A stretch of DNA of 64,000 bases from Ceratodon purpureus (taxonomy: Eukaryota; Streptophyta; Bryopsida; Pseudoditrichales; Ditrichaceae). The number at the start of each line of letters is the position of its first letter. Positions within the stretch are counted from its first letter, which is position 1. Shown piece by piece: positions 3,654 to 30,844 of the stretch. A model generated the notes under the pieces. The model made no database searches, was not told the DNA's origin, and saw only the letters and a list, made by a program, of their open reading frames with translations. The translations under genes were made by a program, and so were the position numbers. The stretch lies in contig CM026426.1 of assembly GCA_014871385.1 (NCBI GenBank), positions 24,517,437 to 24,581,436 of the forward strand, in the 5' to 3' direction.

Positions 3654-4043
3654 GGACATGTCATGAGAAGTTTAAATTCATTGTTTTGACAAACAATGGG
3701 ACTAGTAGAGGATTTTACGTAGCCTCATCTCATAATACCTTATTATTAAAGGTGTTTTTATAAGGTCAATCGGATGATAAGTTCAGAAGGGTAGGAAATA
3801 CCAATGTTTCGATAATGACATTTATTTAGTCATTCAATCATATGTAGTATGTGTAAGCCGCGGGAATATAAACAACTGAATTGAACTGAATCATTCATCA
3901 CAAGTCTGAAATGAGTTGAGAGTGCGTGTAGTTCAATGAGATGTTATGAATGATATAGCAAAGGTAATGGCCGCTGAAATGTAATAAAAAGTTAGAGGTA
4001 ATAGAAGCTGCTTCAAAGAATACGATTCCAATGTCAGAGATGT
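3654..4043. other. Convergent intergenic region with shared 3' ends
   Basis: RING 1 (plus strand) and the ParB-methyltransferase gene (minus strand) end toward each other here. The stretch is A/T-rich with AATAAA-like words on both strands. No reading frame or repeat stands out. Confidence 0.45.
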
Positions 4044-5652: not shown

Positions 5653-5859
5653 GGACGTAGCTAGTACGTGAGCGGAGAGCGCAGAGCGGAGAGCGGTGAG
5701 CTCAGATTTGGAGAGCGGAGAGCACAGAATTGGGGACAGAACCTTAAAATAGCAATTTTTTTACTAAAAATAAATTATAAAATTAGAAGATTCGAATATT
5801 CTTAGTGTATTTTTAGAAAGTTACTAATATTAGTACTTTTATTGACCCTATAACCGTGG
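5653..5859 (+). repeat. Left terminal inverted repeat of element A
   Basis: It begins GGACGTAGCTAGTACG, followed by degenerate 7-bp AGCGGAG repeats, then an A/T-rich core with TTACTAAAAATAA-like words, and ends CCCTATAACCGTGG. It matches the right end of A (inverted) and the right end of B. The AGCGGAG run is a plausible transposase-binding array (inference). Confidence 0.85.
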
Positions 5860-6558
5860 ATTAATTACAGTATTTTCATTGAATTTGTAGTTCATTTTCT
5901 CTTTTCTTGGTGATTAATTTTTTAGTGTGCACCAATTACTATGCTCCAGCTCCTTCTAACTAGTTCAGGCATACATTAATTTCCCTTATCTCCTCAAATT
6001 TATATGCAAATTACTACTTAAAATGTATTCGTATTGAACCTCTTAAAAGGAATCAAGTAACATTTAATTTCCTAACATTTTCTTAACATTGCTAGAATTC
6101 ATCCGCCATAGTCTACATGCCTTACAACTTTTTATCTTTTATTTTTTATATCAACTTCCATTATTCTATCTATCTTGTTAAAGGGGTCAAAAGAGTCCTT
6201 TCCTTTAATTCTCTTTCATTTTATTTTCTCTTTTATTTTCTCAATCGCCTTCATATTTTTTTCAACCTTAATATTTATTTTTCCTTTTGTTTACTTTTCC
6301 TTTTCTAATTTCATTTTTTATAATTTTTTTTTTATTTTTTTTTTTTTTTTTAAAAATTTTAAATGCTAAATGACTTCTGCTCAACCCTCATCCTTTTTCA
6401 TTCATTTTAGGACGACAACTTTCGGATCAATGAAAAGCCGGTTTTCAAGGGCGCCAAGCATCATCTTCACGGATATTTAAGGTGGGATTATTGTATGTCT
6501 CTTCCTCTTTTCTGTTGGTGTTTTCTGAAGCTCTTTTCCGTAGTGCGGGACAGCAGTT
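5860..6558. other. T-rich subterminal region of element A
   Basis: This is strongly T-rich on the plus strand, with a nearly pure T run at about 6320-6360. The matching place in element B (30845-31697) is A-rich on the plus strand, hence T-rich in the same inward direction. It has no convincing gene. The 5' leader and promoter of the 150-aa gene must lie in its last few hundred bases. Confidence 0.6.
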
Positions 6559-7011
6559 ATGGAAGACGTTAGAGATATTGTTGTATCACTTGCTGACGGT
6601 GTTTGTCCATTTCAACCATATGTTGAGGTCGAGGACGAAGAAGAGGTGATGGCCAACAGCCAAGGGCGTCCTTTGACAACGGATGTTGACGTACAACCGG
6701 ATGTAAGAGCTGAATCTCCACGTTCAGAAAATTCGGATGATATCAGAGTGCTGGAGGAGAACGCAGATGTGCCTTTGCAAACTCATGCATACTCAAGGGT
6801 TGGAAAGATCCCAAGGGGAACCTATTCCAGGGAATCAGTGAATCGGAGGCGGGGAGGTGGGCCATTGCTGAAACGTTCATACCAAGGACACTTGCCAAAT
6901 GTTGGAACGAAAGTGAATGCAAATATAGTTTGTCCTGCAGTACAGTCAGAGGTTCGGAGCCCTGCTGATAGTGTAGTGGGCAACCCTAAACGTGTTAGGT
7001 TCGAAGATTAG
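6559..7011 (+). CDS. 150-aa element-borne protein, copy A (acidic body, basic nuclear tail)
   Basis: The ATG at 6559 opens a 150-aa frame ending in TAG. It is homologous to the 150-aa protein of element B at 30316-30768. Shared blocks are an early VSLADGVCPFQPYVEVE-like stretch (SLGDVLGPFHPYEEVE in B), a central HAYSRVGKIPRGTYSRE, LLKR, and a C-terminal NPKRVRFED tail (IPKRIKFKE in B) that resembles a nuclear signal. It has no enzyme motif. It sits nearest the element end in both copies and converges on the transposase 255 bp away. Conservation of length, place and orientation in two diverged elements says it is a true element gene. An accessory DNA-binding or regulatory role, as for the second gene of some MULEs, is possible but unproven. 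Confidence 0.8.
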   Translation: MEDVRDIVVSLADGVCPFQPYVEVEDEEEVMANSQGRPLTTDVDVQPDVRAESPRSENSDDIRVLEENADVPLQTHAYSRVGKIPRGTYSRESVNRRRGGGPLLKRSYQGHLPNVGTKVNANIVCPAVQSEVRSPADSVVGNPKRVRFED

Positions 7012-7265
7012 GACATCTAATAACAAGTATATGTTTGCTATAATAAAGGGTACATGTCAGAGGATACGAGGTATATAGTGCACTTGTTCAAGATAGAATG
7101 TATTGAAATAGAATGCAATCAATGTGAACGACAAAGCCTTTAATATAATGAAAAAGTCAATACAGCTTCTGAATAGCTGACTTAGTACATGGTATATTAC
7201 TAAAATCATTCACTACGTGACAAATGGCCATTGTGGAAACGGCAGTTCTAAAGTAGGAGGGCTAC
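7012..7265. other. Convergent gap between the 150-aa gene and the transposase
   Basis: This A/T-rich stretch holds the 3' ends of both genes. The same 250-260 bp convergent gap is kept in element B (30057-30315). Confidence 0.5.
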
Positions 7266-10200
7266 CTACTTCTTCGCCAAGGGGTGACGCAAGATTCCAC
7301 TCTCTAGGAGAAGCTTGACCTCGTTGAAGCTAAAGGTAGGCGCATGGATGAAAAGCTCGGCCTCGGGATCACGATTGCAGACCTTCAAGAGTATGTAGTA
7401 AAGGTGCTTACAATACGTGAACTGAGTCCTGCCTTTGAACGTAGTCATCGTCTTCTTGAATGCTGGGCAAGTGCAACCAGGGTAAGAACTGATGGTAATC
7501 TGGTAACGTGTGATGTGTGGAGCGACGCCCGAATCCAGCCCAATGATGCAACCGTGGCCCGGCTCAGGTATCATGGTGACGGAACGGAGGCGCGCTTTGA
7601 GAGACTCGGAGGAGCCCATGGATAGTCGCTGCGCCGGATTGGGACGAGTGGCAGTGCGCTTCACCATCTTGCTGTCTCTCTTGCCTGGGTAGCGGTCAGC
7701 GTCTGCAGGGACTGGCACCGAGTTGAGATTTGCAGGGGGCGAGGCAAAGGAGAAGAGGCGTCTTGGGGAGACCGGCTTCTTCGGCGGAAGTTGAAAGCCT
7801 GCTGCTTCGAGGGCAAGAATCTCAGTCAGTTTTAGGTTAGTACCTAGTTTCACTGGCCAGACGTCAGGAATGGAGGGGAATTCCTGGTCCTTTGAGTAGT
7901 GCGCTACCCACTTGCGCTTAGAGCCTTTCACGCAGCGCTCAATATTGTCGGAGCAGAAGAAGAACTCAGTCTTCTCGACTGTGTTCCTGCGATAGTTAGT
8001 CCACAGCCCAGTGTAGGTCGGTGCAGCTGTGCAAAGGGGCCCCCTGACGATTCTCTCAGTGCACTTCTTCTTCGTTTCAGCTCTTTGGGCCCAGCAGCAC
8101 TTCGCAGAAAGTTTGTGAAGTCTGGAAATGTGCCATTCCTTGACGTCAACCTTGGTTTCTTCAACCGCGTTGACATGGCGAATGCCGCCCTTGTTCACAG
8201 GTGAAGGTAAAGGGGAATCAACTTCCTGGGCAGGAGGTTGGGTACATTGTACCTCGGTGTCGTGTTCGGAGTCGTCTTCCACAATGACTGGCATCTACAT
8301 AGGGCGAGCCCTGACGGCACGTCTTGGGCCTCTTGGGCGTGAGAAGTTTGTCTTGTCCGGGCGATGAGACTCCTCGTCAGCTCCGATGGGGACGTCGGCT
8401 TTTCGCTTCTGTGAACCGAAGACTTCCGCTCCAGGCATGATAGGCTGACGGGTGCAGAACTCATCCGCGCCTGGCATATCGAGCATGGGCTTATCAAGCA
8501 GTGTAGGATTTCCCCATTTCTTCGCGTTGCGTTCAGCCATCCGGAGCCTGAGTTCCTTCTTGGACGGTCCTGTTCCGCCGACGTCACCTTTGAGGAACTG
8601 GTAGTAGTTAACAACCTGAAGAAAAGCCCGAACGAAATCGTCCACGGTAGCAACGTACAGGTCGTTCCCGTTGTTTCCAGAAGCTTGAAGCCACTTGTTG
8701 TGAACTGTTTCGGCGAGGTTACAGGTGGGCATCTCTGTGAGTTCTTCTTTCGTGAATTTCTGCAGATTTGACAGTAGGTGCCGTTAGATTCACGGATTAG
8801 AGTTTTGTAGATTTGGGATAGAAAAACCAGTATGAAAAACATCAAAACAGAGTGCAGAGATCGTACCTCGGTCATGAATCCCCCCCACTGGCGGAAGCGG
8901 TGGTGCCAGAATGACAGCCACTGATCGAGTTTGATGAGCCCGCTCTCGCCAACGACCCCGGTGGATGCCCACCATGCTCGCAACGCGTGGTACAGAGTTT
9001 CCGCCTCTGCCATGCTGGTCGCATTCTTGTACTGAGTGCACATCTTCTTGTGCTGTTCCCAGAGTTCTTCGGGGAAGTGCTTCTGCGTATACGCCACCAT
9101 CTTCTGAGTCCAGTGGAACAAGCACGACCTCTCCCGGTCCTCCATTGGGTCCTCTTTGTTGCCATTGCCGTAAAGGATTCGCACTGTATTCCAATTCGCC
9201 TGTGCGTTATCCGCCATGAACCCCTTGAAGTTCGGCGCTGCAACGCCATTGATCTCCATGACCAGGTTCAGGTTTTTCCAGAAGACGAGCTGGGCGTCCG
9301 TGTCCTCGGACTGCATGTCGCAAGTGGCGATTGTCATCACGCGGCAGTAGGTGGCGTCGTACACATGGCACGCCATGGTCGACCAGTCTTTGACGCGTTT
9401 TACATGGTCGAACATGATCCATGCGTTCTCCAAGTCGCCACCAGCTTGCATTCGGCTGACCAAGTCGACACCACTTCCCGGCCCGACCTCCGACATCTTG
9501 AAGAGGAAGACTTTGTCACGCATAGATCCCTGACCAGGAAACCTATTCTCCTGGACATACGCCCAGAGACTGTTACCACGGAGCTTGGTGATACCGTCCA
9601 TGATTCCGTACCTTTTGAATTTTTTGAAGGTGGCGACTTTGTTGCGGATGTTGGGCGACGCCATATCTTTGCATCGATCCAGAACAGGAACCAGCTCCTC
9701 CATCGTCAGCTTCCTCGGTGGTGCATCCTCGGGCTGTAGAAGGTAGCTTCCGATGAGGAGTTTGCTCGCCTCCAAGACAACGGCGCTCTTTGTTGCTTTG
9801 TTGTTCATCTCTACCTGCTCTTCTATTAAGCTACTAATCTCTGCTTTAGAGTCTCTGTAGTCTCCTACTTTCACTGGATGATGATGTGTTCCTATGTGAA
9901 TACAAGCTCTAGTCTGATTTGGTTTGCCCACAACGTAATAAATCTTAGCCTCGCATGTAGCTACACATGATGGAGGTTCTTTACATACCTTGCACAATAG
10001 CGTCGAGTCAGATGGAGGAGGCTGATCCATGACAAAAGCTTGCAGGGTACAGCCTTCGAACTCAGTCTCGTTAACCTCGAAGATCTTGGGAACACGCTTC
10101 AGGAAGTCACACTCCTCGTTCGTGCAACGCAGCCATCCGACGCAGGTGGAACTTCGAAAAGAGAGTCCGAAGTCGTTTTTGATGTTTGTTGTGATGGTCT

Positions 10201-11005
10201 TGGTCCACAAGTGTCCGTCGTATCGTTTGTCCATTCCCTGCATTGACTTGGCGGCGAGCTTAGAGGACCCTACAGTAGCTGGTGGCAACTCAAAAAGAAC
10301 CGGACCATCAAACTTCGCAGGCAAGTACTCTACTCTCTTGTGTCTAAGAGTGGAATAGTCTATCTTCTTCAAAATGTTTTTGGACCCACGCGTCTTAGCA
10401 ATCTCTTTAAGGAGCGGAACAATGCTAACTGTGACCTGGGACAATGGAGGAGACACAATGGAAGGAGGAGCATCAGCGTGGACCTTAGGCACGAACTTGA
10501 CGGGACTGACTTCGTCATCAGAAGAGAGAGATATGACGGTCGGAGGAGGTTTCTCTATATCTGAAGTCTCGGTACCAGGCTCGACTTTGACCTTGACATC
10601 ACGAGGTAAGGGAGTCTGAATTGTGCAAGTAGAAGAGCGACGGGGGGTGAGGATCTCAGTGGATGCAGCCATAAGAGAATCAGTAAGACCATAGACTCTA
10701 TAGGATCCAGGGAGGAGTCTCCACTGCAACATATTGTTCTCATCTCTCGTGGAAAGTTGCCCGAGGGTGTGGGTAACCTCTGCAGTAACGTCATCAAAGA
10801 TTTCCTCTTCTATACTGATGGTATCCTCACGGAAATGGAATCTGAGACTCAGGCGAAGAGAGGAAACTGTAGCTAGACCATCGTCATCTACGCGAAACCT
10901 AAGAGGGATGCCCATGCCTTGGGCGTACAGACAGACCATCCCCATGTTCGCAGGCAACTCAGTGATACGAGTGGAAGAAGGGAGGAGAGTGAGTGCATCA
11001 GCCAA
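7266..11005 (-). CDS. MULE-type transposase of element A
   Basis: Two exons. Exon 1 runs from about 11005 to 8867. The intron goes from 8866 to about 8762, and exon 2 ends at TAG 7266. The frame upstream opens only with TTG, and the first in-frame ATG is near 10945. The protein has an N-terminal domain shared with B (RLSLRFHFRE), an acidic linker, a zinc region resembling GCM/WRKY fingers (CTNEECDF ... CKVCKEPP ... ACIHIGTHHHPV), and the MULE DDE core (VYDATYC, then FMADNAQANW, then a CLFHW block). After the intron come ETVHNKWL, a His/Cys block (CCWAQ ... FFFCSDNIERC), and a SWIM finger (CTCPAF ... YCKHLYYI). The enzyme would cut and rejoin the terminal repeats. One in-frame TAG (8295-8297) lies where B has CAG (Gln). 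The gene is about 80% alike to B by eye, with the same intron place. Confidence 0.88.
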
Positions 11006-11579
11006 GCGCTATCGCGAGAGCAAAGTGAGAGGAATGATGCATCGTTGATGATCATTTTATTCAGGTTGGAATGTCCATGTGAATAGTTGGGGAATGATGC
11101 TGTCTGTTAGGTAACGGATGTATGATTTAAGAGAGACGGCGCTAACTAATTACAGTGCCACTTTTTGCAGGTCTAAGTATATGAGGTAAGGTTTATTGAA
11201 CTCTACTTTAACATTTGAATCGTAGAGCGGATTCTATTTGACATGATGTATTATAAGATTAGAATGAGCCGTCATTTTAATTCTACATTTAAAACAATGA
11301 TTATAAAAAGGATCATGATTAAAGTGCTTGATTCAAATCTTTCAATTTATAGTGCACTTAAATATATTCCTTATAATTAAAGGTTGATATTTTAAATCTA
11401 GCTTAAATAATAGAATTGTTAATGATATTCTTAATATAAAGTGGGCAGACAATGTCAGTTGTTGAGATTGTATATCAACTTAGGGTTGTAGGAGAATAGT
11501 TGTACGTGAGAGGTATTTAAGCAGGGAGAAGTTTTCATGAAAGTCTTTTTGTGAGAGAGTCCTTCCTTTGGTTAGACAC
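10946..11579. promoter_or_regulatory. Bidirectional promoter of transposase and ParB-methyltransferase, element A
   Basis: The two genes are head to head with about 560 bp between them. A TATA-like TATTTAA (11514-11520) stands 60 bp before the methyltransferase ATG at 11580. For the transposase an AATAAAA-like word on the minus strand near 11054-11060 could serve. The middle is A/T-rich. The same divergent layout is kept in B and D. Confidence 0.5.
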
Positions 11580-14500
11580 ATGAAGCAGAGTGGAGGGCCA
11601 TCTCCCTCCACTTATGTTACTCCTAAACAGAGAAGGAAACCTGGCCGCACTGATTTTACAAATAGAAGAGCTAGAAAGAGGAGAGCATCACGAAAGCAGG
11701 TAGATTTGAAAAGTGACCACTTGAGTGCACCCGTGAAACGGAGAGGAGGAGATCTGCCTGTAGCTTTGAAGTTTTGTAGTCTTCGCAAACTCATTCTCGA
11801 CTCTATTGTAGAGGAGAAAGAGGAATTATTAGAGAAGACGGACGTCGAGAATCACGAGCAGGAACAGGTTGTACATTTAAGTAGAGGAGCACGTGAGCCC
11901 ATGACGGAAGAATTAGTCTTTAATTGTAGTCAGAAACTAGAGTCTCCGCAACCATCGATTTCATTCAATGAGTTCTCGACAGGGGAGCCTGATTCTCAAT
12001 CAGATTTTTATTTAAACCCCGAGAAGGTAAGTATTTATATTCTCTCTAGTACGACGGTGATGTGAATTATTTGTGTAATCTAGTGTTTTTGTAAAACGTT
12101 AGTAATTGAAATGTTTAAATAAAAAATGTGAGGTTCGTTTTAAGTCTACTTGAGTGGGGCCGCGGCAATTTACACATTCGAATCATCAGTCTCATTGAGA
12201 GGGCCGCGTCACTTGACACACAGGAATCTTGAATTTAAATGTATGCTATTTTTACACAGAGCCCCGAGAGGATGAGAGGGGTCGGGGATCTATCTGGTGG
12301 CTCCGCAGTTGGAGATTGCATCGAGTTCGAGCACCTGCGTTTCGAAGCGAGAAGAGCGAGGCAAGGTATTCTCGACGCAGGAGAGGGAGGGAGAGCAATG
12401 GCTGCGCAGCCTGTGGAGATTGTGGGCGGCCGCGGCCAAGGTGATCTCGTGGAGGTCGATGGAGGCGTGGAGCTCGAGGAGCAGGTCGGAGTGCAGCACG
12501 GGGACCAGGTCGAGGGCGACCTCGAGGACCACCTCGACAACGATGACGACGACGAGGTAAGTTTCTTCAGGTGTCGGTGACACCATGTTGGATGATATGG
12601 AATGGTTGGTTGTTGGGTGGTCGGGTTTGTTGGGTGCTGTTCGAGAATATTGGGGGATTTGATAGAATTGTTGGGGATGGAATGATGTCGTTGTTTGGTT
12701 GTAAGGTATGATGTTTTAGTTGTTGGGTATATTTCCCGGATTTGATGAATGCCGCGGCCCCTATTGCAAACCTGTGGGCCTCTAATTTTTAATTGAAATC
12801 GCTTCGCTTCAGCGGCATTGCAAGCAGCCCCGGCTGAGGAGGCGGATGCCTCCGAGGACGCCGCGGGCTCTTTTTTTTTTAATTGAATTCGCTTTGCTGC
12901 AGACGGCCTGGTGTCTGCATTCGGAGCAGACACCAGTGTCGCGGCATTGCAAGCAGCCCCGGCTGAGGAGGCGGATGCCTCTGAGGACGCCGCGGGCTCT
13001 TTTTTTTTGATTGCATTCGCTTCGCTCCAGCCGGCCTGGTGTCTGCTTTCGGAGCAGACACCAGTGTCGCGGCATCGCAAGCAGCCCCGGCTGAGGAGGC
13101 GGATGCCTCCGAGGACGCCGCGGGCTCTTTTTTTTAAAATGCATTCGCTTCGCTCCAGCCGGCCTGGTGTCTGCTTTCGGAGCAGACACCAGTGTCGCGG
13201 CATCGCAAGCAGCCCTGGCTGAGGAGGCGGATGCCTCCGAGGACGCCGCGAGCTTTATTATGAATAATGATATCCACTTTTATATATTGCGATTAGTCTA
13301 GTCTCCAGAGGTTCTTGTCATTGTATTATTTTTTGAATATGTACCAATTTCCATGCATGGAATTTCTCTATGCATGTGAGAGAATTATTATAGTACGTAT
13401 CATGAGAGAGAAAATGTTTCTAATAATTGACCTTCGTGAAATTATTATGTATTACAGGATACTTCACAGCAAAACACGGGGACCGAGAGTGAAAGCAAGG
13501 GGCCTGAGGAGACTAAGGTATACTTATTGATGTCATAATGTATCTCGTACACCCTATCTTATTATCCTAAATAATTCAGGTTAATGATAATTCAAGTTTA
13601 ATAATTTGTAAAATCTAATTTTCTCATATGCCTTGTACTTGCAGGTAGGCTCTGATGCTCCCGACATGTCTGTCAATTCTCCAATCTCTGTGATCAACCT
13701 TTCAGACCTGTCAGACCCAGAGGATGAGCGTCTTTGTACCTGTGATTTAGCCATTCCTTTAGGTGTAGAGACTGGACCTTTTGAGGTCCAGTCACCCCAG
13801 TACATGCCTACTTCGCCTGTTTACGAGCCCACCTCCCCAGTGTACATGCCCACCTCTCCAGTGTACATGCCCACCTCGCCACGTCTAGGCACACCGCCAT
13901 CTTCGCCAAATCCCCCAGCTTCACCTTTGGTTTTGAGGAGGCCAGCCCATGTAGTGTTTGCCCTTCCGGCAATACTGCCCAGCGCTTGCCGTCAAACGAG
14001 GCGATTTTGGAGGAGGCGCCATCACTGGAATAGTAGAGAGGCTAGACAGTACTATGGAAGGGCTCCTCGTAGAGTGGCACGGCCTTGATGCTTGGTGCCA
14101 TAGATGAAATTTGGGATGTTTTTTTCTTACTCTTTCTTTTATGAGAAATTCTCTAAGTGATTGGTAAATTCCATTTCTCAGAATCTGCATTGTTGAGTTT
14201 GATTGTTCATTTCTATGGCATATGGCAGGTACCCGAGTTGACGCAAACACAGGACCTGTTGCCATCATCATCAAAGCCTCTGGACTTGAAAGACGCTGTT
14301 GAAGAGGAATTGCTTCATCAAACTCAACATAAAGTTGATTCGATCAAAGTCATCAATGCAGTTCGTATTCAGCCCTTGAGGAAGTCTCGCCTGCTTGTCC
14401 CATTGTGTAGAATGGTTGCAATGGCAAAAGTGAGACCGGTTGGCGAAATGGGCGTGCAGCATCTGGAGAGGGAGTTCGTGAAGGGTTACAGAGATGGGGA

Positions 14501-17500
14501 CCGCGTGATGTATATTTCCATGTACAACACTGAAGAGATGTCAAAGGATGTCACGGAGGAAGTGAAGGCAAAGTGGAGCCCGTGCTGGCGCAAGGCTAAC
14601 GAAGCCTTCGAAGCCGACCTCCAAGGAGACGATGACCTCAATCAATTCAGTGGCAAAATGTTTTTTGTATGGGAAGGTAACCATCGTCTTTCAGCTTGGT
14701 TACGACACATCAACAAGCATCATGCCGATGACCCAGCTTGGCACATCTCCGTGCATTGCATCATATTGGACCCCCGCGGCCAAGTGGGCAATCTTCTCCA
14801 TGCGATGCATGACATCAACTGGTAAGAATTTTGGTTGAACAATTCCTTAAATTTGATTTCGGATCATCCTTCTAGTGGGAAGTGTTTTCTAAACAGTTTT
14901 TTTTTTTCACAGGTCTACTGAGAATGACCATGTGAAGAGTAATCTTCCAGCGAAGTTATTCCGCATTCGCTCTTTCGGTGTCATGAAGTTAGAAGAATTC
15001 AAAGATCTTCTTAGCCCAGAGGAATTTGAAATCTGTGTGCAGAACAAACACGCAAAGGACCGGTGGTTCACCTTGACAACGAAGGTTTTCATTGCGTTCC
15101 TTTACCGAGTAAGAATTTATACCATGACTCATCAAGTACATTCCTTCTGATCCATACTTTAAGTACTGCATTTCAAGTAGTTTGTTCATTGATTTTAATA
15201 TATTGTATCTCCATGTACAGAGAGAGATTGCAGTCGCCTCGGATCAGGCCGCAAGAGCCTACAAGGAGAACACGCCAATACAGGATCAATCTGGATCTGG
15301 AGTTTGGGATGCGATGACGACAGCGTCAAACAACTACATCGATGCCGTGAAGAAGAAGGACTTCACCAAGTACTTGGCAATTGCGAATCCCAAGAATGGT
15401 GATGACTTCCTTGCCGAGGTATATCCTTAATCACTTAATCTTAAGCTATTTTCTTTTCATCTCCTGTGTTATCTTGATTTCATTAAGATATCTGTTCTAT
15501 TCTAATTGCAGATTAACCGCCATTTCAGCAATGTCAACAAACCTGAGATGACATTGGACAAGCTGCAGAAGATTGTGCCGGCGGCAGTGGAACCCAAGTA
15601 CAAAGCTCGTTGGTTGAGGTGGTGGAACTCCTCTCCGACTTCAAGGCAATCTTATAGGTTCCCACCACAAGAGTTCAAGGAAGCTGACCTCGACCGTTGG
15701 CTAAACAGGGCTTCATTCTGGGCAGGGGTATGCTCTCTTATTTCCAGAACTGATAATGTCTTTGTCATTCTATCACTTTGATTGTCGTAGACTAATTTTG
15801 CTGACTGTCTCTTGTAGTTGGAAGAAGCGGTCATCCATGAGTTCGAGGACCTGTGTAAGGCGGAGGAGCTCGACATCAATTGGAATGCCTTCCCTGATGT
15901 TCAGCGACCAGGCGATTACGTGAAGAGCTGGCGTATTCTGCTTTGGGACAGAGCATTCCCGGCATTCCTTGGATCCAAGGCGAAGAAGACTTTTGATAAG
16001 AAGTCGATTTTCACAAAATTCCCTGGAACGGCCGATGTTGTCAAGCGAGTCATCTACCGGTATGAATCTTTACTCAAACATGTGTGCATTTTGAATCCTG
16101 CATTTCGTCTCTCCCACATACTAATAATTTTAAATTGGCCCACATTAGGTACTTCAAGAGAGAGCTTCTTCCCAAAGGAGCCGTCACTGTCCACCAACTC
16201 CCGAAGTACTTTCCTTTATGGATCCAGAGAGGCTCGGACGAGTGTATCTACTCTGCTCAGCAATTGAAGAGGTACAAAGCTCCCCACTTGGAGGAAGGAT
16301 GTTGGTATCTAGATTGCCTCCGTGGTTTTACAGTCGATTCTGAGGCCGATGTCAAATCATCACTTGATCTTCGAGCGCCAGTAGTCTAAGACTCCAACGA
16401 CGGTTCTGAAGAAGACGAAGAACATCAAAGTCAATCATCTGCACCTCAACCGAAGAAAGGGAGAGCTCGGCGACTGCGAACACTGGGTTCGAAGTCACAG
16501 ACCTCACAAGATACTGGGGCTGAGTCTTCCTCACCAGGGAAGGAGACGGGCAACGCTTCTCCAACTGTAGACGTCCCAATGCCAACGTCGACCACAGCGA
16601 ATGCGCCTTCATCCATTGGTGCTTCTGCGATCACGCAAAGTCTCATTGAGCAGAGGAAGGCCAAACTATATCCTCAACCAACTTCTTCCGCTGGAGCTTC
16701 GATTTCCACACATGTTTCCGTCTTCAACTCATCTGTGGATTCCATGTTACGGCGAAATAGGAGACAGGAGAGAAAAGGTGGCGACCCGGATTGGATCAAG
16801 ACTTAAGACTTCATTTGCAAGGTTTGTTCCTATATTTCGACATTTAATGGATTCTGCCACCTCTACTCGCTATGTAGTTACTAACTCTCCTTTCTTGTTT
16901 GCTCAAGTTTGGAGCAGGCCGCGAAAACGAAGTTCCGGACCGGTGCAAACAAGAGAACCATCTAGGAGTCGACTTGATCATCGCCGACATCCCTGAGAAT
17001 CTTCCCGTCCCATCCGTTTACGTTCCCCCCACGAGTATTCCGCCTTGGAACTCTCGCTACAAGGATTATGTGTACGATATCTTCCGTTATGCAGATGATT
17101 TCCTGCAGAAAGATGGTGCCATCTGCCTCATCTACAACATTGATCAGAAGCTGGCTAAGGATATCGACGAAGAAGCTGCTGGTGGTGACTACGTGCTCTT
17201 CAAGAACTGGTGGGGCGTCAATGTTCTCGGCCTCACTTCTCCTACGAACCCCGAGAACTTGGTACTTTTCCTAAACATACCCTTCTTTTTACTTACTGAT
17301 AACCCTTCCGCTTAATTTTACTCACTAGTTCTGCTTGACTGCAGACTATGCGGTTCTGGATTCGCGTCTACGTTCGTAGTGGCAGTACTTTCTCCTTCCA
17401 GACGAAGAAGGAAGACCTAATACATGGGCTCCTCAACATTACCAAGAGTGATGCCATTTTCAACTTCACCGATGCCGAATCTCAGCTCATGAATGGGGAG

Positions 17501-18224
17501 GTGCCGTGGAGAGGCCCAAGGGAGAAATCCCCTGAGATGATGCAGAGCATCATTGAGGAGCTGTCCAAGCCCGGCGACATAGTCCTTGACTGGAATGCTG
17601 GGACAGGTAACTCTTCTTACATATCTCTGCTTCAATTTTCCTCTCGTTTTTTCCAAAGTTTCTCATTTCTTTGTTTCTCTTCGAGTTTCAGAGGCCTCCA
17701 TTAAGGCCGCCCAGGCTGTTGGTCGTCACATTCTCGCTTTTGAGGAGGACGAAGCCATATTCAACGCCCTTCTCAAACCATCAGCCATGGGTCCTCCTAA
17801 ACATCCAAGGCCGGCAGCAGCAGGCGAAGCGCCTCCTAAGAGAGCAAGACCTGACAAGTGGTGTAAGTCTTCTATTCTTTGTTCAAATTATCCAATCATT
17901 ACTTCTCTTTCGAGCTCTACATACTCTATCTAACCACAATCGGTTCTCTATTGCAGAGTAGTTTCAGCAACATCGCCACGTGGGCCAAGAGCAGTGTCCA
18001 CTCCATCGTGGCGTCTTCATTCCAGCCCGATTCAGCCTTTCATCCTTCCGGACTACGCAGAGGACTTAGCACAGGCGTTTCAATCTGGAGCCCTAACATA
18101 TGTTCCTAGTCGGCCAACTACTTTTGATCCCAGAGCCCTTCTATTCGTCGATGACGAGGCGGTAGAAGGAGATTCAGAGTCATCTAGTTCTGAGAGTGGA
18201 AGTAGCGATGGTAGCATTTTCTGA
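11580..18224 (+). CDS. ParB-like domain/N4-N6 DNA methyltransferase fusion, element A
   Basis: About 14 exons with clean GT-AG ends: 11580-12026, 12260-12555, about 13457-13517, 13646 onward, 14229-14821, 14913-15108, 15221-15418, 15512-15727, 15818-16059, 16149-16821, 16908-17261, 17345-17606, 17692-17862, 17957-18224. The N-terminus is basic (RRARKRRASRK), then acidic, then has polymerase-II-like heptads. Exon 14229-14821 holds a ParB/sulfiredoxin-like domain with VPLCRM and GKMFFVWEGNHRLSAW. Middle exons are helical and Trp-rich. The methyltransferase has motif IV-like VDLIIADIPE, an odd form of DPPY, then RGPREK and motif I VLDWNAGTG at the C-terminal side, the order typical of the beta class. 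ParB-methyltransferase fusions are known in phages and bacteria, and a MULE-borne eukaryotic form is unusual. Two TAA codons (16387, 16804) interrupt the frame. The last exon is acidic. The likely site of action is DNA in the nucleus. Confidence 0.82.
12812..13255. repeat. 128-bp tandem repeat with perfect hairpin, intron of methyltransferase A
   Basis: Units begin at 12812, 12941, 13069 and 13197, a period of 128-129 bp, 3.5 copies. Most units carry GGTGTCTGC-TTTCGG-AGCAGACACC-type hairpins (10-bp arms, short loop), a GAGGACGCCGCGGGCTC block and a T run. The first unit is partial. It lies between the acidic exon and the short exon at 13457. It leaves long open frames on both strands that are artefacts of the period. 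Confidence 0.9.
13646..14088 (+). other. Exon with RNA polymerase II CTD-like heptads
   Basis: The exon opens after a CAG acceptor at 13645. It encodes Ser/Pro-rich sequence and, at 13801-13884, four perfect-phase heptads YMPTSPV, YEPTSPV, YMPTSPV, YMPTSPR. Against the consensus YSPTSPS, Tyr1, Pro3, Thr4, Ser5 and Pro6 are kept in all four, Ser2 is Met or Glu, and Ser7 is Val or Arg. More SP motifs and an Arg-rich tail follow, and the frame stops at TGA 14086-14088. No clear donor leads on to the ParB exon at 14229, so this may be an alternative end of the transcript or be spliced at a weak donor. Elements B and D show no such heptads in the parts I can read. Confidence 0.65.
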
Positions 18225-18712
18225 GTTTGAAGGAGGCTTCGGTCTTTCATTGTTTTCATTGGATTTGATTTGATTTAATTGGAGTTCATTGCGTAATCCT
18301 TCGTCTACTCTACTACCCTGAATCTATACTTGTTACGATTCTCATTTCCAAATCGTCTCCTCCTATGTAGAGGATGAATTGTCACAACCGTAATGCTCAA
18401 AATATAATATGAAGAATGAAATGTTACAAAAGAAATGCTCAAAATTTAAATTGCGCTGTAACTTATATTTTAACCATTCAAAATCCCACATTTCCTAACC
18501 ATGTTACCTATTCTTGACTTGGTGTACATCTTGGTTTTTGCTACTCCAGTACTGTACACGAACTCTGAAATATTCCACGAAATTTTAAGATCTCTTATTT
18601 CTAGAATCATCTATATTATCTAAAACCATCATGCTGGAATACTTGTATCTAGATCCAATAAAAGACCAAATCTTAAGGATTGTATTCGAACACCCCGCTA
18701 GACTTCACAGTA
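18225..18712. other. 3' region between methyltransferase A and the 123-aa gene
   Basis: This A/T-rich convergent gap has no gene or repeat that I can see. Confidence 0.45.
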
Positions 18713-19084
18713 CTAATCCTTTGGAGGATATACAGTCCAACTCTTGTCCATATCAAACCAGCAAGTTTCGCCATCCGATATGATCACTTCGGGCAGCTGA
18801 ACAACTGGATTCTCATCGACGTTCGAAAGCAAGGGATACGGGATTAGGGACAACTCCATAATACGGAGAAGCTCATTGGTACAAAGCACTGTCCAACGCC
18901 ATTCACCTTCACCAACATGGAGGCTTCCGATGTGCCTAAACGGTGGCAGGTCTATGCCTCGTTCCCTGGCGTGCTCCACCTCCAGCAGCCACGGCTGCAG
19001 CTCCTCATAACTCGCCGGTGCCTTTGGGGGCAAACCTACAGCCGCTCTCGTCCTCCTGGATCTCGCATTACACACCTTCGGCAT
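18713..19084 (-). CDS. 123-aa unknown protein near the right end of element A
   Basis: ATG 19084 gives MPKVCNARSRRTRAAVG, a basic start followed by a block with PWLLEVEHARERG and a Trp/Asp-rich C-terminus (CWFDMDKSWTVYPPKD). An open frame continues upstream to 19312 without ATG, so an earlier exon is possible. I recognise no family. It occupies the place that RING 1 holds in element B, convergent with the methyltransferase gene, yet shares no visible sequence with it. Confidence 0.45.
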   Translation of the reverse strand: MPKVCNARSRRTRAAVGLPPKAPASYEELQPWLLEVEHARERGIDLPPFRHIGSLHVGEGEWRWTVLCTNELLRIMELSLIPYPLLSNVDENPVVQLPEVIISDGETCWFDMDKSWTVYPPKD

Positions 19085-19312
19085 TGCGGAACACACTGAA
19101 TTCTTGTAGTCTTCAAACGTTACAGTCAAGCTTGTAGATTGACATCCCCGAACTCCTACGCTACCTTCGCCTACAGCACAGCATACCAAGGACTGTGTCA
19201 CTATCCTAATACGCCACCTACAGACAAGCTCAAGAAACCAAGAGTGACCTCCTTCTGTGGAACCCAGCTTACCAAGTGCTGTTTCATGATGAGAATCTCT
19301 TACTTGTATCAC

Positions 19313-19736
19313 TCAAATGAAGAAGCTTCGGTGCCTAGGGAGAGAGAGTAATCATCGATGAAGACAAGGACTCTAACAAGGTATATCTTGGTATCAGCAG
19401 TTCAGATATTATACACGAATTTCGAAATACTCTAGGAAGTTTTCAAACCTTGCCTCCTTTATGTTCTGTGAAATTTGTTTCTTTCCTTTTGCATTTACAT
19501 AAACCTATGAAAGAATTAATTGTTTGATCTAGAACTTAACGCCTGATCATTATATCTTGCCAAAATCCATGAGAAATCTAACAAAATATATGCATGCCGT
19601 CATCATGACATCAGCCCTAATTTGTATCTTAGAGAACAAAGGTAATAAATTCTTACCAGAGATAATCCTGATTTCCACGGTAATATACTCTTTTCCTAAA
19701 AAAAGAGTCAAAATCAAGCCTTAATTTAGTAATTTT
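19313..19736. other. A/T-rich subterminal region, right end of element A
   Basis: No gene. It mirrors the A/T-rich subterminal stretch at the left end. Confidence 0.5.
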
Positions 19737-19855
19737 CCACGGTTATAGGGTCTACTTTGCTTTTGAAAATTTTCCTAATTGTCAATTCTGTGCTCTCCAT
19801 TCTGTGCTCTCCGGTCTCCGCTCTACGCTCTCCGCTCACATACGAACTTTCCCCC
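19737..19855 (-). repeat. Right terminal inverted repeat of element A
   Basis: Read on the minus strand it begins GGGGGAAAGTTCGTATG, then AGCGGAG-type repeats, and ends CCCTATAACCGTGG. It is shorter than the left repeat (119 against 207 bp) because part of the A/T-rich core is missing. Confidence 0.85.
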
Positions 19856-19864
19856 TGACCGCAG
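19856..19864 (+). repeat. Right target-site duplication of element A
   Basis: Second copy of TGACCGCAG, immediately outside the CCCCC that ends element A. It lies in the same codon phase of the B methyltransferase exon as the left copy. Confidence 0.88.
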
Positions 19865-22800
19865 AAGCCAATCACACACTTCAAGAAGTCTGGAACCTTA
19901 CTGTTCCAATTGGGGACTCCTCCAGGGCGGGGTGAAACACCCGGAACAACTAAACCGTCGGGGTAATCAGCGATGACCAGGTCCACAGCTGGCTTCTCCT
20001 TCAGCTTTCTAGCAAAGTAAAACTTCCCACTTGATCTAACCTGAAATTACAAGAATATCATTAAGAAGATAAATAATAACAGAAAACATATTTGAAATAC
20101 AGAGATGATTCAAATGATGTCTCACCCTCTTGAGGAAAGACACCATGGCTTCGAATGAGGGAGGAAACTGGCCGGTCTTGTCTCTCACTTGAACCATGGA
20201 ATGAAACGATTCGTCAAGAATCAGGACTTGAGAATTTGGCACTGCTGCGGTGACAGCCTGGCTTGCTGACATTGCTTTAACTGATGGAGGTGTCAACTCC
20301 TCAGAGTCATCCTTTGAAGATGGGCCGAGCAGCAATTTCTTCCTTGGTCTGTCGGGGGTGCCTGCACTCGGATGTGACTCTGCTGGTCCAGTCTCGACCT
20401 TCTTGTTGGCTGCAGCTGTAGTGGCTGGAATGTCCTCCTCCTCTTCGGCTTGGTCCTTTACCTCATCCTCGGCCTTCCTCTTACGATTCCTTCTTGCTTT
20501 CGCTCCGCCCTTTCCCCTTGAAGATCCAACTGCCGGAGGAGTAGGAGAAGCCTGAGAAGCAGCAACTGGAGGTGCCTGTGGTATCTTGGCAAGTTCGGGC
20601 TGAATGGAGTGCCTCAGTGCAATGTCAAAAGCCGGACATTTCTTCGGAGGGCAATCCAAGTACCAGCCACATCTTTCGTAATGTTGTGGTTCCCATGCCT
20701 TCAGAATCGCAGCTGTATACATGCATTCGGCGCTGTCAACATCTAAGTAATTCGGGAAGAAGGGGGGTACCTTCGAGATCGCCTTTCTAGGCAGAAGAAT
20801 GTACTTGAAGTACCGATACAAGATTCTTCGAACCGCGGGTTGAAAATTCGGCTGCTGGTCTGACTTCTTGTTCTTATGGACAAGGTCTCCATTCAACTCT
20901 CTAAAAAACGCAGTATCCCAGAGCTGACATCTCATTGCCTCAACGTAGTCAAAGATGTTGTCGATTGGGTCACCATTATCCGGTGCGTAGTCGACCTGAA
21001 CCCCGAGATCCGTTATCACTCCCTTGAAAAGCTCCTCAGCCTCAATCGCCAACTGCAACACATGTACCACCTCTTCCATGTCAACAAACCATGCCAAATT
21101 TAATGCCGGTACCGGCGGTGCTTGTGTGCACCTTTATAGTGACACAGAGGTCTGTCAAATTAGGCAGCTCCAAAAGAGCCCGCTCGTACGGGTGATGCCC
21201 AACGAGTACCCGGGAGTACCCGGCGAAGCCTTCAGAGTACCCGGCATTTTCCTAAGAAGATCAATTCGTCGACTAAAATGGAGCCCTGAAAGCATGGCCG
21301 GTACCGGCAAAGCCTTTGTAGACCCTTCTAGTCGATAAGAGGGCAAAGTGCAGTGCCTTCTATTTGACTGTAAGGGTCCTTCGAAGGCACCGCCGATGCC
21401 GGCATTGCTATCAGACCACCCGATACTCAACGAGTTAGTCTTCGAAGCAACCTAGTTGTTGACTTTCGGGTGCTCTGAGAGCAACGCCGGTACCGGCGGT
21501 GCATCCGAAGCACCTCCACAGTCTCAGAGTAGGCTTATTATACATCCTTCTCAATGACTATGTGGGTGCTTCGAAGGCACCGCCGGTACCGGCGGTGCTT
21601 TCAGAGCACCCCGGCAGTCAACGAGCAGGTAAAAAAACAGCCTGCTCGTTGACTGCTCGAATGCTCTGATAGCATCGCCGGTACCGGCGGTGCCTTCGAA
21701 GCACCTCCACAGTCTCAGAGGAGGCTTATTATACATCCTTCTCAATGACTATGTGGGTGCTTCGAAGGCACCGCCGGTACCGGCGGTGCTTTCAGAGCAC
21801 CCCGGCAGTCAACGAGCAGGTAAAAAAACAGCCTGCTCGTTGACTGCTCGAATGCTCTGATAGCATCGCCGGTACCGGTGGTGCCTTCGAAGCACCTCCA
21901 CAGTCTTAGAGTAGGCTTATTAGACATCCTTCTCAATGACTATGTGGGTGCTTCGAAGGCACCGCCGGTACCGGCGGTGCTTTCAGAGCATCCCGGCAGT
22001 CAACGAGCAGGTAAAAAAACAGCGTGCTCGTTGACTGCTCGAATGCTCTGATAGCTTCGCCGGTACCGGCGGTGCCTTCGAAGCACCTCCAAAGTCTCAG
22101 AGTAGGCTTATTAGACATCCTTCTCAATGACTATGTGGGTGCTTCGAAGGCACCGCCGGTACCGGCGGTGCTTTCAGAGCATCCCGGCAGTCAACGAGCA
22201 GGTAAAAAAACAGCCTGCTCGTTGACTGCTCGAATGCTCTGATAGCATCGCCGGTACCGGCGGTGCCTTCGAAGCACCTCCACAGTCTCAGAGTAGGCTT
22301 ATTAGACATCCTTCTCAATGACTATGTGGGTGCTTCAAAGGCACCGCCGGTACCGGCGGTGCTTTCAGAGCATCCCGGCAGTCAACGAGCAGGTAAAAAA
22401 ACAGCATGCTCGTTGACTGCTCGAATGCTCTGATAGCTTCGCCGGTACCGGCGGTGCCTTCGAAGCACCTCCAAAGTCTCAGAGTAGGCTTATTAGATAT
22501 CCTTCTCAATGACTAAGTGGGTGCTTTGAAGGCACCGCCGGTACCGGCGGTGCTTTCAGAGCACCCCGGCAGTCAACGAGAAGGTCGTCGGAGCAACCTG
22601 CTCCTTGACAGCTTGGGTGCTCTTACTGCACCGCCGGTACCGGCGGTGTATTCGAAGCTCCTTAACAGCAGTCACGTAGATGGAAAAAACAAGATATATA
22701 CCAACAGAAAACATAAGAAAAGGCGTAGAGATACTCACTTGAGCCCACCAGGTAGCCTTATGTAGCCAAGGCAGGAAAACCGCATCCGAGAATCCAATTT

Positions 22801-25800
22801 TCGGAAACTTGTGGGCAACCCTGATTGCCTCCGAGGAGTTCCATCGCTGGAGCCACTTGACCATCATGCTTGCTGGCATGGCAGAGGTCGCCAACATCCA
22901 GAGCTTCTCCTGCTGCATCTCCGGCTTATCATCTGCCTTCTCATAATGGAGTTTGATTTCTTCAAGAAATTTGGAGGAGTGCTTCGGGTCAGCGATTGGC
23001 AACATTTTCCTCAATTCCCCGGCTAGTTTATCCTCCACCCTCTGGACCGCCTTTGTGACCCATTCATCTGCTGAGCGTTCGGTCCATTGGCTCGGGTTGG
23101 GATTAGCCAACTGATAACGCTGTTGGGCAGCGTGAGCTGCCTCCCTGATCTCGTGCTGCAGGCAAGATTATAACAAAAAATAAAATCAAGTTTTAAGTCA
23201 TAATAAGAGCGTGGATTTAAACTAGGTAAGAAAACAGGGTGAATCTTCGCACCTGATGCAAGACCGCATTCAGGGCTTCTACAGACAGCGTATACCAGGT
23301 CCGATTCTTTTTAGACTGCTTTTTCTTTGCAGCATCGATGACGGACCGAGAAACAAGCCCTTCGAAATACTCCACAGGCTGAGGAGCGATGTTTTGTAAC
23401 CGATAAAGCCTGTGCACAAGGTTGGTAGAGACATGCGATTTCTGATTTCTCCTGCATGTTCAAATCAAACAAAGTCATAAAACTGTGTACTAAATTGCGA
23501 CAAATTGTGTACTAATACTTGAAGAAAAAATCAGATCGCTCCTTACCAGTTCACTTCGTGAAGGGCTGTGAGCACCGATGGAATTTCACCCTTCGGGTCG
23601 AGGACAACGCTCTCAACTCGGTAATGCCAATTAATGTCACCAGCATGAAATTGCTCAATAATCGGCAACCAAGCCTGCAACCTGTGGTTTCCATCCCATA
23701 CCATAAACATCTTCTTTGAAAAGACCTTGAGATCATCGTCTGCAAGCAGGGTCGCTTCGAAATCTTCATTCACCTCTCTCCATTCTTTCGACCAAGATTC
23801 TTCAATAGCAGGTGTGACCTCCGATGTGTGTCCGTGGTTATCCTCCAGTGCCACGTAAAAATACCCGTTTCCCTCCATGTAACCATCTCTTACGAAATGA
23901 ACCTGCAGAGTCGATACATCATTCTTCAAGTACGGCCTTACCATCGGCAACGAAATCATACGGCACAGAGGAATGAAGAGGCGGCCTTTGTTCTTTGGTT
24001 GCCATCGCAATCTCTCCAACCTCGACACGGTGTTGACTGTCTGGCTCGCAACTAACTCATGCAGAACCTGGTTCACCTCGCGCTCGGTCAATGGTACTGC
24101 ACAAGGTAAGAATTAGTGTTAGTGCCGAGCAATCTTAAAATGACCATGTGCACCATCGTAAACCCAACCTAACATCGATCTAAACATCTGAAAAAAAACA
24201 GTTAGGCATCAGCCCGAGACCAGGGAGACTGACGCAGTTGACTGCCCAAAAGCGACGCCGGTACCGGCGTCAGGATCTTAGGGCCCCTCCGGCAAGGAGA
24301 ATGTGCCCGGAATGGTGCCGCCGGTACCGCCATCGCATTCGGGTCTCAAACTGATCCTTGCCCTGATCCCCGCCGGTACCGGCGACACCCTTGAGGACAC
24401 ACCGAGAGGTGATGCCGATATCGGCACCGCCATAGAAGGCGGAACCAATTTGGGCACGAAAGCCGATGCCGGTACCGGCGTCGCATTTTAGGGTTCAGGC
24501 GCGAGGGAACCCTGAAAGGCGACGCCGGTACCGGCATCGTTATTCGGGCTCAAATGGTGCAGCCTACCAAGGCGGTGTGAGCAAAAACTATAACGAAGAG
24601 GGTGACAGAAAAACGAACCTTCGGGTGTTGTATCCTCCTTCTCACCCTCCTCGGCTTCATCGTCTTCGCCGTCTCCATCCCCTTTGAGTTCCTCCATCTC
24701 AACCTCGTCGTCGTCCTGATGGTTGCGGTAGATAGCTCCACCACTTCCCGACTGAGGCTCCTTGGAACCGCGGCTCGCATCATCTTCTTCTTCCATAACC
24801 TGCGACGTTGGAGTCCTCTGTCCAGACTGGGTCTCCATCTCCTGCATCGTCAATAGAAATGATTAGGACTTAATCGAATAACTTAAAAGAACTCTACATA
24901 AAACCTAAATGACCCGCAGAGAGTACTCCTTGACTGTAGGTCACCTTACTGTCCGCAGAAGAGAAAGAGCGATACACGAGGAGAGAAGAAGGACAAGGAG
25001 ACCGCACATGGAGAAGATGTCGAAGAACACCGCGAGGGCAGAAGGAGTAGAAGAAAACCGCGAGGGGAGAAGAAGAAGAAGAACACCGCGAGGGCAGAAG
25101 GAGTAGAAGAAAACCGCGAGGGGAGAAGAAGTAGAAGAAACCCGCGAGGGGAGACGAAGAACTTGAAGACCGCGAAGGGAGAAAAACAGGGAGACGGCAA
25201 GAAGAGAAGAAGAACGAGTTAGGTTAACTAAGAGATAGGCGATGGCTGGGCTAGAGCTTTGGATAGAGTAGCCTTGTCGTGGCGGCTTTGGTACTGATTA
25301 TAATCAAACCATTGCGCAACACAAGCAATCATACAAACGTAAAACGTCAAATCAACTGATAGGACATCTCTGCCAAGAACTCATTGACTTATCATTTTAG
25401 GCTTCGCCCGAATCACCAACTTCATGAGTCTTTGGGCGATTGTTAAGAGTTTCGTAAAATTGTTCAAATAAATACTGGAATCGAAAGAGATTGAACTGCA
25501 ATCTCGTAACAAAGAAATTAAAATTTCAATAACATACCTTTGGCGAGTCCTTCTGGGTTTCTTGAACAGCAGTTGTCTTCTTCGCGTGTTTTCCAGCACC
25601 CCTCTTGTACTGCTTGGTAATATCCTCTGGTACAACAACTAAAGGTGTCTTTGCAGCAGACGAGTAATCTAAAACCTTTGCCAGTCCTGCAATTTTTAAA
25701 GTCTCGGTTCTCTTCTTCTTCTCTCTCGCCATCTGACTAGCCATTAATGCTCTTTTCGTACTAAAGTGACTACCTCTTCTTCGTTTCTTGGCCTTCGCTG

Positions 25801-25810
25801 GGGCCTGCAT
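19865..25810 (-). CDS. ParB-like/DNA methyltransferase gene of element B, 5' part
   Basis: The start is ATG 25810 (MQAPAKAKKRRRGSH, strongly basic). A second exon near 24842-24627 is very acidic and replaces the heptad exons of A. The ParB/sulfiredoxin-like exon (24091-23549) has FIPLCRMISL and KKMFMVWDGNHRLQAW, a better match to the DGNHR form of the ParB motif than in A. Exons near 23453-23254, 23156-22741 and 21054-20133 follow; the last has a basic stretch (KARRNRKRKAED) and the block ILYRYFKYILLP shared with A and D. The exon from 20040 holds motif IV-like VDLVIADYPDG and ends at 19865, where element A is inserted. The remainder lies at 4044-5652. Three introns carry GGTACC palindromes. 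Intron places agree with A except that the ILYRYFK block is uninterrupted here and in D. I see no stop in the exons of this copy. Confidence 0.8.
21100..21480. repeat. Scattered GGTACC palindromes and degenerate relatives
   Basis: Exact GCCGGTACCGGC cores lie near 21103 and 21295 and a decayed form near 21387. The stretch leads into the regular array that begins near 21480. It sits in the same intron. Confidence 0.8.
21480..22660. repeat. 191-bp tandem array, each unit a large palindrome with two GGTACC cores
   Basis: About six units with a 191-bp period. Each holds two GCCGGTACCGGC cores about 95 bp apart. The units are themselves inverted repeats around a short A run: CAGTCAACGAGCAGG on one side faces CCTGCTCGTTGACTG on the other, and the outer arms with TTCGAAG and the cores also pair, so about 160 bp could fold into one hairpin or cruciform. 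Copies are nearly identical, which points to recent expansion or conversion. Thirteen of the 14 cores are exact; the one near 21863 has one change. The 64-aa frames seen in each unit are by-products of the period. Confidence 0.93.
24240..24560. repeat. GGTACC palindrome cluster in the 5' intron of methyltransferase B
   Basis: Exact GCCGGTACCGGC cores lie near 24252, 24370, 24463 and 24521, with decayed forms near 24316 and 24412 (one centred on GATATC). Spacing is about 50-60 bp. Unlike the array at 21.5-22.7 kb the spacers differ, so the core itself seems to be the kept part. Confidence 0.87.
24960..25200. repeat. Purine-rich minisatellite (CCGCGAGGG / AGAAGAAG)
   Basis: Repeats of about 33 and 66 bp with CCGCGAGGGGAGAAGAAG-like units, five or more copies, lie in the first intron of methyltransferase B. 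The long purine strand explains the Arg/Lys-rich and Phe/Ser-rich open frames on the two strands, which I do not count as genes. Confidence 0.85.
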
Positions 25811-30056: not shown

Positions 30057-30315
30057 GAGGCACTATACTATTATGGTCTCAAGTATGCATACTGGACAGT
30101 GGTTCATGCGGATACTTAGGCCGAGGTGATTGAATTTTTCCTTGTACTGAGTCAGCAATACAAATCTCGTATTGCCTATTTCAATATAAAGGTTTTGTCG
30201 TTCACATTTATTACATTGTGTTACAATAGCATTCATTTCAACAAGTGGCATTTGTTATATATATCAACGCACAATTGGACTGTACTCACTCCATGAATAC
30301 CTTTAAATATAGATT

Positions 30316-30768: not shown

Positions 30769-30844
30769 ATCACAACACGCTCTTCTTGGAACTTGATTCA
30801 AGAAGAGCACGAACAAAGAGGATGAGAGCTTCTACTGCCACTAT

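Follow-up and report, generated by a model that had tools for sequence, protein, structure and literature searches.

An amino-methyltransferase-like gene with element-specific intronic repeats in nested Mutator-like transposons of the moss Ceratodon purpureus

We analyzed 64,000 nucleotides of the moss Ceratodon purpureus (contig CM026426.1 of assembly GCA_014871385.1, positions 24,517,437 to 24,581,436; this whole stretch is the window). We found that it contains Mutator-like DNA transposons, here elements A, B and D, and that this element family holds a gene with an amino-methyltransferase domain of bacterial type. An earlier note, made from the sequence alone, had proposed this. The proposal is now well supported by a nested insertion with its target site duplication, by three pairs of gene and transposase and by solid homology of the domain. 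We call the gene the GNHR-methyltransferase gene, after a motif of its N-terminal domain. Its introns hold tandem repeats that differ from element to element. As a tentative reading, we suggest that the encoded protein may be a self-recognition factor, convergent with VANC (the anti-silencing protein of Arabidopsis VANDAL elements), which would be addressed by the repeats in its own introns and would shield the element from silencing.

Nested elements and the gene they share

Element A is a transposon with exact limits, and the gene lies within it. The sequence CTGACCGCAG flanks the element on both sides (10 of 10 bp identical), and the ends are inverted. The 17-mer GACCCTATAACCGTGGA was detected within both ends of A and also in the outer end of B. 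The parts of A are as follows (ORF, open reading frame).

5643 to 5652: left target site duplication of A, a copy of CTGACCGCAG
5653 to 19854, + strand: element A, a Mutator-like DNA transposon of 14,202 bp with a 10-bp duplication and inverted ends, inside element B
5653 to 5875, + strand: left terminal inverted repeat region, with GAGCGGA repeats
6544 to 7011, + strand: small gene, with a homologue in B (30831 to 30316, 38% identity)
7266 to 11008, − strand: Mutator-like transposase, spread over several ORFs
11580 to about 18224, + strand: GNHR-methyltransferase gene, spliced
19709 to 19854, − strand: right terminal inverted repeat region
19855 to 19864: right target site duplication of A, a copy of CTGACCGCAG

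Element B occupies the other strand, where its gene spans 24847 to 19865, breaks off at the duplication of A and continues from 5642 to approximately 4040. When the flanking parts are fused so that the duplication is kept only once, they give an open, in-frame protein (...DFLKCVIGFCGQYLHDDGALLLFYPD...). It reads ...VIGFCGQYLHDDGALLLFYPD... and is co-linear with the A protein, with no gap at the junction. Therefore A jumped into the methyltransferase gene of B. The features of B and of the third element, D, are given below.

4040 to 5642, − strand: 3' part of the B gene, severed by A, with motif I DLTVGTG
19865 to 24847, − strand: 5' part of the B gene (exons 24847-24619, 24096-23547, 23451-23253, 23155-22739, about 21079-20127 and 20040-19865)
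26323 to 30056, + strand: B transposase
30316 to 30831, − strand: B small gene
31681 to 31915, − strand: B outer inverted terminal region
54540 to 57907, − strand: D transposase, several ORFs
58508 to 64000, + strand: D gene with the GNHR domain and the middle region, which leaves the window ahead of any methyltransferase part

In all three elements the GNHR gene and a related transposase are arranged head to head; the pairing itself had been stated in the earlier note. The two transposase parts compared between A and B were 72% and 83% identical, while D shared 41-54% with A or B (ORF pieces compared). The residues D23, D72, C101 and H104 were invariant in three of three copies and NLAE/NLSE was present in the ORFs; we take these to be the D...D...CxxH...E residues of the family. 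The note had called these enzymes MULE (Mutator-like element) transposases, and here the Pfam scans of transposase ORFs from the three elements gave no MULE domain among their matches. A SWIM finger scored below the cut-off (E values of 0.12 and 0.07). MULEs have target duplications of 8-11 bp. A shows both the duplication and the inverted ends; of B we found one end only, and the second end of B and both ends of D were looked for and not found. The Mutator label therefore rests on the 10-bp duplication, the inverted ends, the D...D...CxxH...E residues and a weak SWIM finger, with no Pfam match.

We drew the A gene with exons at 11580-12026, 12260-12556, 13458-13517, 14229-14821, 14913-15108, 15221-15418, 15512-15727, 15818-16059, 16149-about 16822 (uncertain), 16908-17261, 17345-17606 and 17692-17862 and on. 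Ten of the 11 drawn introns are of the GT-AG type, the exception being the linker junction, so that a spliced gene at this place on the + strand, as predicted, holds. The linker is variable and in A contains two in-frame TAA codons. In-phase GT donors precede them, and splicing could excise the codons. The domains of the A protein are encoded as follows.

14364 to 14821, + strand: GNHR domain (ParB-like in the earlier note, with no significant ParB match), conserved in A, B and D
14913 to 16335, + strand: middle region, conserved in A, B and D
16908 to 17862, + strand: amino-methyltransferase domain, with motif IV ADIPE and motif I DWNAGTE, the latter spanning a splice

The copies are clearly related. 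Pairwise comparisons among A, B and D gave E values of 2.6e-51, 8.6e-32 and 5.8e-33 for the GNHR domain and of 1.8e-52, 8.5e-44 and 4.8e-32 for the middle region; the methyltransferase domains of A and B matched at 6.8e-35. Intron sites also recur. One lies after the GNHR domain and one at (F/W)WA(G/Q/N) in all three copies, and one at (A/H)E|I in A and D, not in B. Thus the claim of three copies with common structure stands for the GNHR domain, the middle region and several intron positions, whereas the methyltransferase domain was seen in A and B only.

We also noted a candidate alternative exon of the A gene at 13800-13881 on the + strand (ORF 13612-14088). It encodes the four heptads YMPTSPV/YEPTSPV/YMPTSPV/YMPTSPR and ends in a stop. 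The heptads resemble the C-terminal domain repeat of RNA polymerase II.

Methyltransferase and GNHR domains

The methyltransferase part of A matched the Pfam family N6_N4_Mtase (E 2.1e-8, 34.8 bits against a cut-off of 26.7, residues 176-231) and a DNA methyltransferase family of PHROGs (E 2.2e-9). Among the PADLOC models it matched those of type II (4.1e-8), type III and orphan methyltransferases; the rest of the A gene matched no PADLOC model. A profile of A and B matched the solved structure of DpnA (E 2.4e-5), phage methyltransferases (E 1.7e-9) and fusions of ParB with methyltransferases from phages and archaeal viruses (E 7.6e-9; the 194 aligned columns run from motif IV to motif I). Of 14 phage loci considered, we left out L003, whose ORF is short, and L012, whose chosen interval contained stops; L014 was further omitted from the ParB alignment. 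In the alignment of the A and B profile the motifs come in the order IV, X, I, which is the permuted order of the beta class and the same as in DpnA and CcrM. We regard the predicted permuted amino-methyltransferase fold in the A gene as real, and the assignment to the beta class is confirmed. The motif IV stretch taken alone gave only 0.4-3 bits against DpnA and CcrM, and the strength of the match comes mainly from the part between motif X and motif I. The two pieces of B alone gave nothing at E<=1 in Pfam or NCBIfam and one insignificant match (0.13) in PHROGs.

With the A methyltransferase as tblastn query, 166 phage records matched weakly and none covered 80% of it. The methyltransferase alignment gave 50 pattern matches in viral contigs, with no confirmed relatives, and 201 in genome contigs, with no relatives.

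Motif IV departs from the usual forms. Passages of PMC8885841 give DPPY, SPPY, NPPY and DPPW as variants of motif IV in amino-methyltransferases. None of these was found: A has DIPE and B has DYPD, and the alignment with the fusions sets ADIPE on TDPPY. The unusual motif IV noted before (ADIPE in A, ADYPD in B) is thus seen again when aligned to DPPY. Motif I is DLTVGTG in B; in A it is DWNAGTE, owing to the splice at this point. Passages of PMC8885841 report that the rotifer enzyme N4CMT loses its activity when Ala replaces the Ser and Tyr in SPPY. Catalysis is therefore doubtful, given motif IV of the form D-x-P-[E/D], GTE in motif I of A and the inactive Ser/Tyr mutant of N4CMT. We consider the methyltransferase part to be a fold homologue with doubtful catalytic activity, in line with the caution of the earlier note. 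Its suggestion that the protein writes N6-methyladenine (6mA) or N4-methylcytosine (4mC) is weakened, as motif IV lacks the aromatic residue in both copies and motif I of A is degenerate.

For the N-terminal domain a ParB/sulfiredoxin-like identity had been claimed, and we did not find support for it beyond the motif itself. GNHR is invariant in three of three copies and is of the G-x-x-R type after a strand. Searches of the A, B and D domains against Pfam, NCBIfam and PHROGs gave nothing significant (best E 0.17, for D against a PHROG ParB). Pfam analysis of the spliced exons thus gave N6_N4_Mtase above the cut-off and no ParB match. The GNHR profile compared with nine phage ParB domains reached a probability below 1%, and in both comparisons made the best local match paired GNHR with the GHxR motif of ParB. 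Two AlphaFold models of the GNHR exon had a mean predicted local distance difference test score (pLDDT) of 50.5 and 49.8, and Foldseek with the first model gave no match at E <0.001. No match at E<=1 was found by tblastn of the A domain against phages, and the GNHR alignment gave 159 pattern matches in viral contigs, with no confirmed relatives. Since hidden Markov model, profile and fold searches were all without significance, the name ParB should not be used as established.

A separate match was observed between the profile of the GNHR domains (14229-14822, 23549-24094, 60260-60820) and the ribosomal protein eL24 (9ygm), with E 0.0016, near VTEEVKxKWSxxWRKxNxxFE. It is probably due to chance.

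The arrangement resembles the ParB-methyltransferase fusions of phages and archaeal viruses, in which a G-x-x-R type N-terminal domain also precedes a beta-class methyltransferase in one protein. The N-terminal parts, however, do not match significantly. The match is just as good with phage methyltransferases that lack a ParB domain, therefore descent from a fusion does not follow from these comparisons.

Intronic repeats and the possible role of the protein

The palindrome GCCGGTACCGGC occurs in 21 exact copies in the window. All 21 lie in the B gene (3 at 5070-5261, 14 at 21105-22633 and 4 at 24257-24524), and none was found in A, in D or elsewhere. The copies are in the long introns of B (the one at 21105 at an intron edge), while the other drawn introns of B are approximately 90 bp long. 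The genes of A and D contain other arrays.

5070 to 5272: palindromes in the methyltransferase intron of B, 3 exact copies
12812 to 13254: tandem array in intron 2 of the A gene, 128-bp unit, 3.5 copies, with inverted repeats
21105 to 22644: palindromic array of B with 14 of the 21 exact copies of GCCGGTACCGGC, mostly in 191-bp units, within or at the edge of the 1.66-kb intron
24257 to 24535: palindromes in intron 1 of B, 4 exact copies
61450 to 63148: two tandem arrays of D (74 bp and 75/149 bp) in one 2.0-kb intron, with AATCCGACA in common

We compared ten sites off the 191-bp array. Each of the 12 core columns was 90-100% conserved, and 47 of the 48 flanking columns were 30-80% conserved. 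This count picked sites mainly by the core and is circular to that extent, and the recount allowed mismatches. Sites with 0, 1, 2 and 3 mismatches numbered 21, 2, 2 and 3 in the B gene regions; 0, 0, 0 and 4 in A; 0, 0, 0 and 5 at 31916-64000; and 0, 0, 1 and 2 on the transposase side of B. Taken together, the four stretches outside the B gene had no site at 0-1 mismatches and one at 2. The arrays of A, B and D are all different and lie in other introns of the same gene. The two arrays of D also differ from each other, and both carry AATCCGACA (4 and 5 copies).

Two further observations concern the repeats. In D, at 62280-63150, CAAGGTAC occurs eight times, both strands counted, and CAAGGTACCTTG at two places. 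A GGTACC centre is common to the D repeats and the B palindrome, and the flanks differ.

The VANDALs of Arabidopsis are MULEs. As described in passages of PMC5735166, the short motifs bound by their VANC proteins are arranged as tandem repeats, which lie in the VANC and VANB introns and also upstream of VANA. These repeats vary between related elements, and VANC is more diverged than the VANA transposase (same source). The moss elements resemble this system, as it appears in passages of PMC5735166 and PMC10398659, in two respects: a multi-gene Mutator-like element combines a conserved transposase with a far more diverged second protein, and copy-specific tandem repeats lie in the introns of the second gene. 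The proteins are different. VANC has DUF1985/DUF287, and those passages mention no methyltransferase in it; the moss protein has the GNHR domain and an amino-methyltransferase fold. The parallel of layout is close, kinship with VANC is not supported, and the likeness is one of functional analogy only.

By this analogy, the GNHR-methyltransferase protein may bind the element-specific repeats (palindromic in B) inside the introns of its own gene, and the binding would keep its own element unsilenced, as VANC does for VANDAL. The methyltransferase part might then serve catalysis, or else binding of a cofactor or of DNA. We infer both binding and anti-silencing and hold this as our preferred, though tentative, reading. 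A purpose in escape from silencing, which the earlier note had raised, is indirectly supported by the element-specific intronic repeats in a layout like that of VANDAL and VANC.

Several observations weigh against this reading. A DNA-binding domain in the protein is not proven, and sequence kinship to VANC was not seen (DUF1985/DUF287 were not among the Pfam matches at E<=1). Copies A and B both look damaged. The repeats sit in introns, and introns also gather neutral satellites. The 9-mers of the A array are not enriched elsewhere in the element; 29 of 205 recur in the rest of A and 32 of 205 in B (19865-31915). Further, the divergence of the second protein has to be read with care. The A and B proteins of the GNHR-methyltransferase gene are 34-42% identical, and the small gene is equally diverged (38%). 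The proportion of silent differences (pS) between A and B in the GNHR-methyltransferase gene (0.80-0.88) exceeds that of the C-terminal part of the transposase (pS approximately 0.53, nonsynonymous divergence dN approximately 0.1); for the small gene the values are pS 0.51 and dN 0.47. The pS of the transposase climbs from 0.63 to 0.79 toward the shared intergenic region (outer end approximately 0.53), which suggests recombination or gene conversion among the elements. The extra divergence therefore comes at least partly from a mosaic history and not only from fast protein evolution, and the low protein identity by itself is no proof of an arms race.

A different explanation is that the captured gene is decaying, with its methyltransferase part a functionless relic and its repeats ordinary satellites or selfish palindromes. 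It would account for the two TAA codons in the linker of A, for the interruption of the B gene by A, for the ambiguous acceptor at the 1.66-kb intron of B and for the degenerate motifs, and arrays that differ across all three elements are also as expected. However, the protein stayed conserved among A, B and D while silent change approached saturation. The comparison of A with B gave nonsynonymous and silent differences (pN/pS) of 0.41/0.81 in the GNHR exon, 0.45/0.81 in the middle region and 0.29-0.50/0.80-0.88 in the methyltransferase domain. From these counts we conclude that selection on the protein has maintained the gene. The 12-bp core is near-invariant amid diverged flanks, and the stops of A fall in the variable linker, where the in-phase GT donors could remove them. 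We consider decay rather unlikely.

The protein could instead be an active amino-methyltransferase that is guided by the N-terminal and middle regions and marks the element's own DNA with 6mA or 4mC. The beta-class order of motif IV before motif I fits such an enzyme, as do the Asp and the second Pro of motif IV, retained in A and B, the D...GTG of motif I in B and the purifying selection on the domain. In bdelloid rotifers, according to passages of PMC8885841, N4CMT is an enzyme captured from bacteria that acts on transposons and tandem repeats. In the moss copies, however, Glu (A) or Asp (B) stands in place of the motif IV aromatic residue, motif I of A ends in GTE, and the SPPY change from Ser/Tyr to Ala kills N4CMT (passages of the same source). 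On balance we judge an active self-marking enzyme to be unlikely.

Another role would be that of an accessory transposition protein, which would bind the internal repeats and regulate excision, copy number or cis-preference rather than act on silencing. The second gene of MuDR and VANB of VANDAL offer analogies. The gene is head to head with the transposase in three of three elements, and the repeats are internal to the element. Nevertheless, the arrays lie off the ends, where a transposase would act, and the ends bear a different repeat, GAGCGGA. We give this role little credence. Finally, each lineage could have a matched pair of protein and private repeat address, with 6mA or 4mC deposited or read only there, in a self/non-self manner like restriction-modification, which we regard as improbable.

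Neighbouring features and wider meaning

Other features of the window touch the gene less directly. We compared the tail ORF of A with 13 sequences of the window and 8 pieces of domains and found no kin among them.

18713 to 19312, − strand: tail ORF of A, 199 codons

The small gene (6544-7011 on the + strand, 30831-30316 on the − strand) carries the motif HAYS[RK]VGKIPxGTYS; between A and B, dN was 0.47 and the synonymous divergence dS 0.87. Its A copy matched no Pfam family, and no relative was found in the D part of the window. Just upstream of the B gene, at 24977-25183, there are about seven copies of a CT/GA-rich repeat of 28 bp. The sequence AAACCCTAGCCGCC occurs six times at 45247-45329, and AAACCCTA within it is plant telomere-like. 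Two ORFs (48101-48496 on the − strand and 2055-3653 on the + strand) have cysteine-rich, RING-like segments, with weak RING matches below the cut-off for the first ORF only. Rfam and ARAGORN gave no matches over the window. The ratio of observed to expected CpG was 0.81 overall, 0.70-1.13 in 16 segments and 0.93-1.10 in the arrays, and decides nothing.

Comparable cases are known from other eukaryotes. Retrotransposons of dinoflagellates and of the charophyte Klebsormidium are likewise selfish elements that bear a DNA methyltransferase domain (PMC5890265, in part). Those are C5-cytosine enzymes of retrotransposons, whereas the moss domain is a permuted amino-methyltransferase of bacterial type in a DNA transposon. 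N4CMT of bdelloid rotifers is also a permuted N6_N4 methyltransferase of bacterial type in a eukaryote; in the passages of PMC8885841 it is a host gene with a chromodomain and SPPY which silences transposons, while the moss gene is transposon-borne and has D-x-P-[E/D]. In the open-licence literature, the matches listed included no description of a ParB-like or amino-methyltransferase gene in a Mutator-like element.

If the suggested reading is true, anti-silencing that is encoded by the element and addressed by repeats would have arisen independently in another Mutator-like lineage, by way of a bacterial methyltransferase fold. The moss would then offer a DNA transposon of a eukaryote that carries an amino-methyltransferase-like gene, and escape from silencing could be tested there with a single protein and a single 12-bp site.

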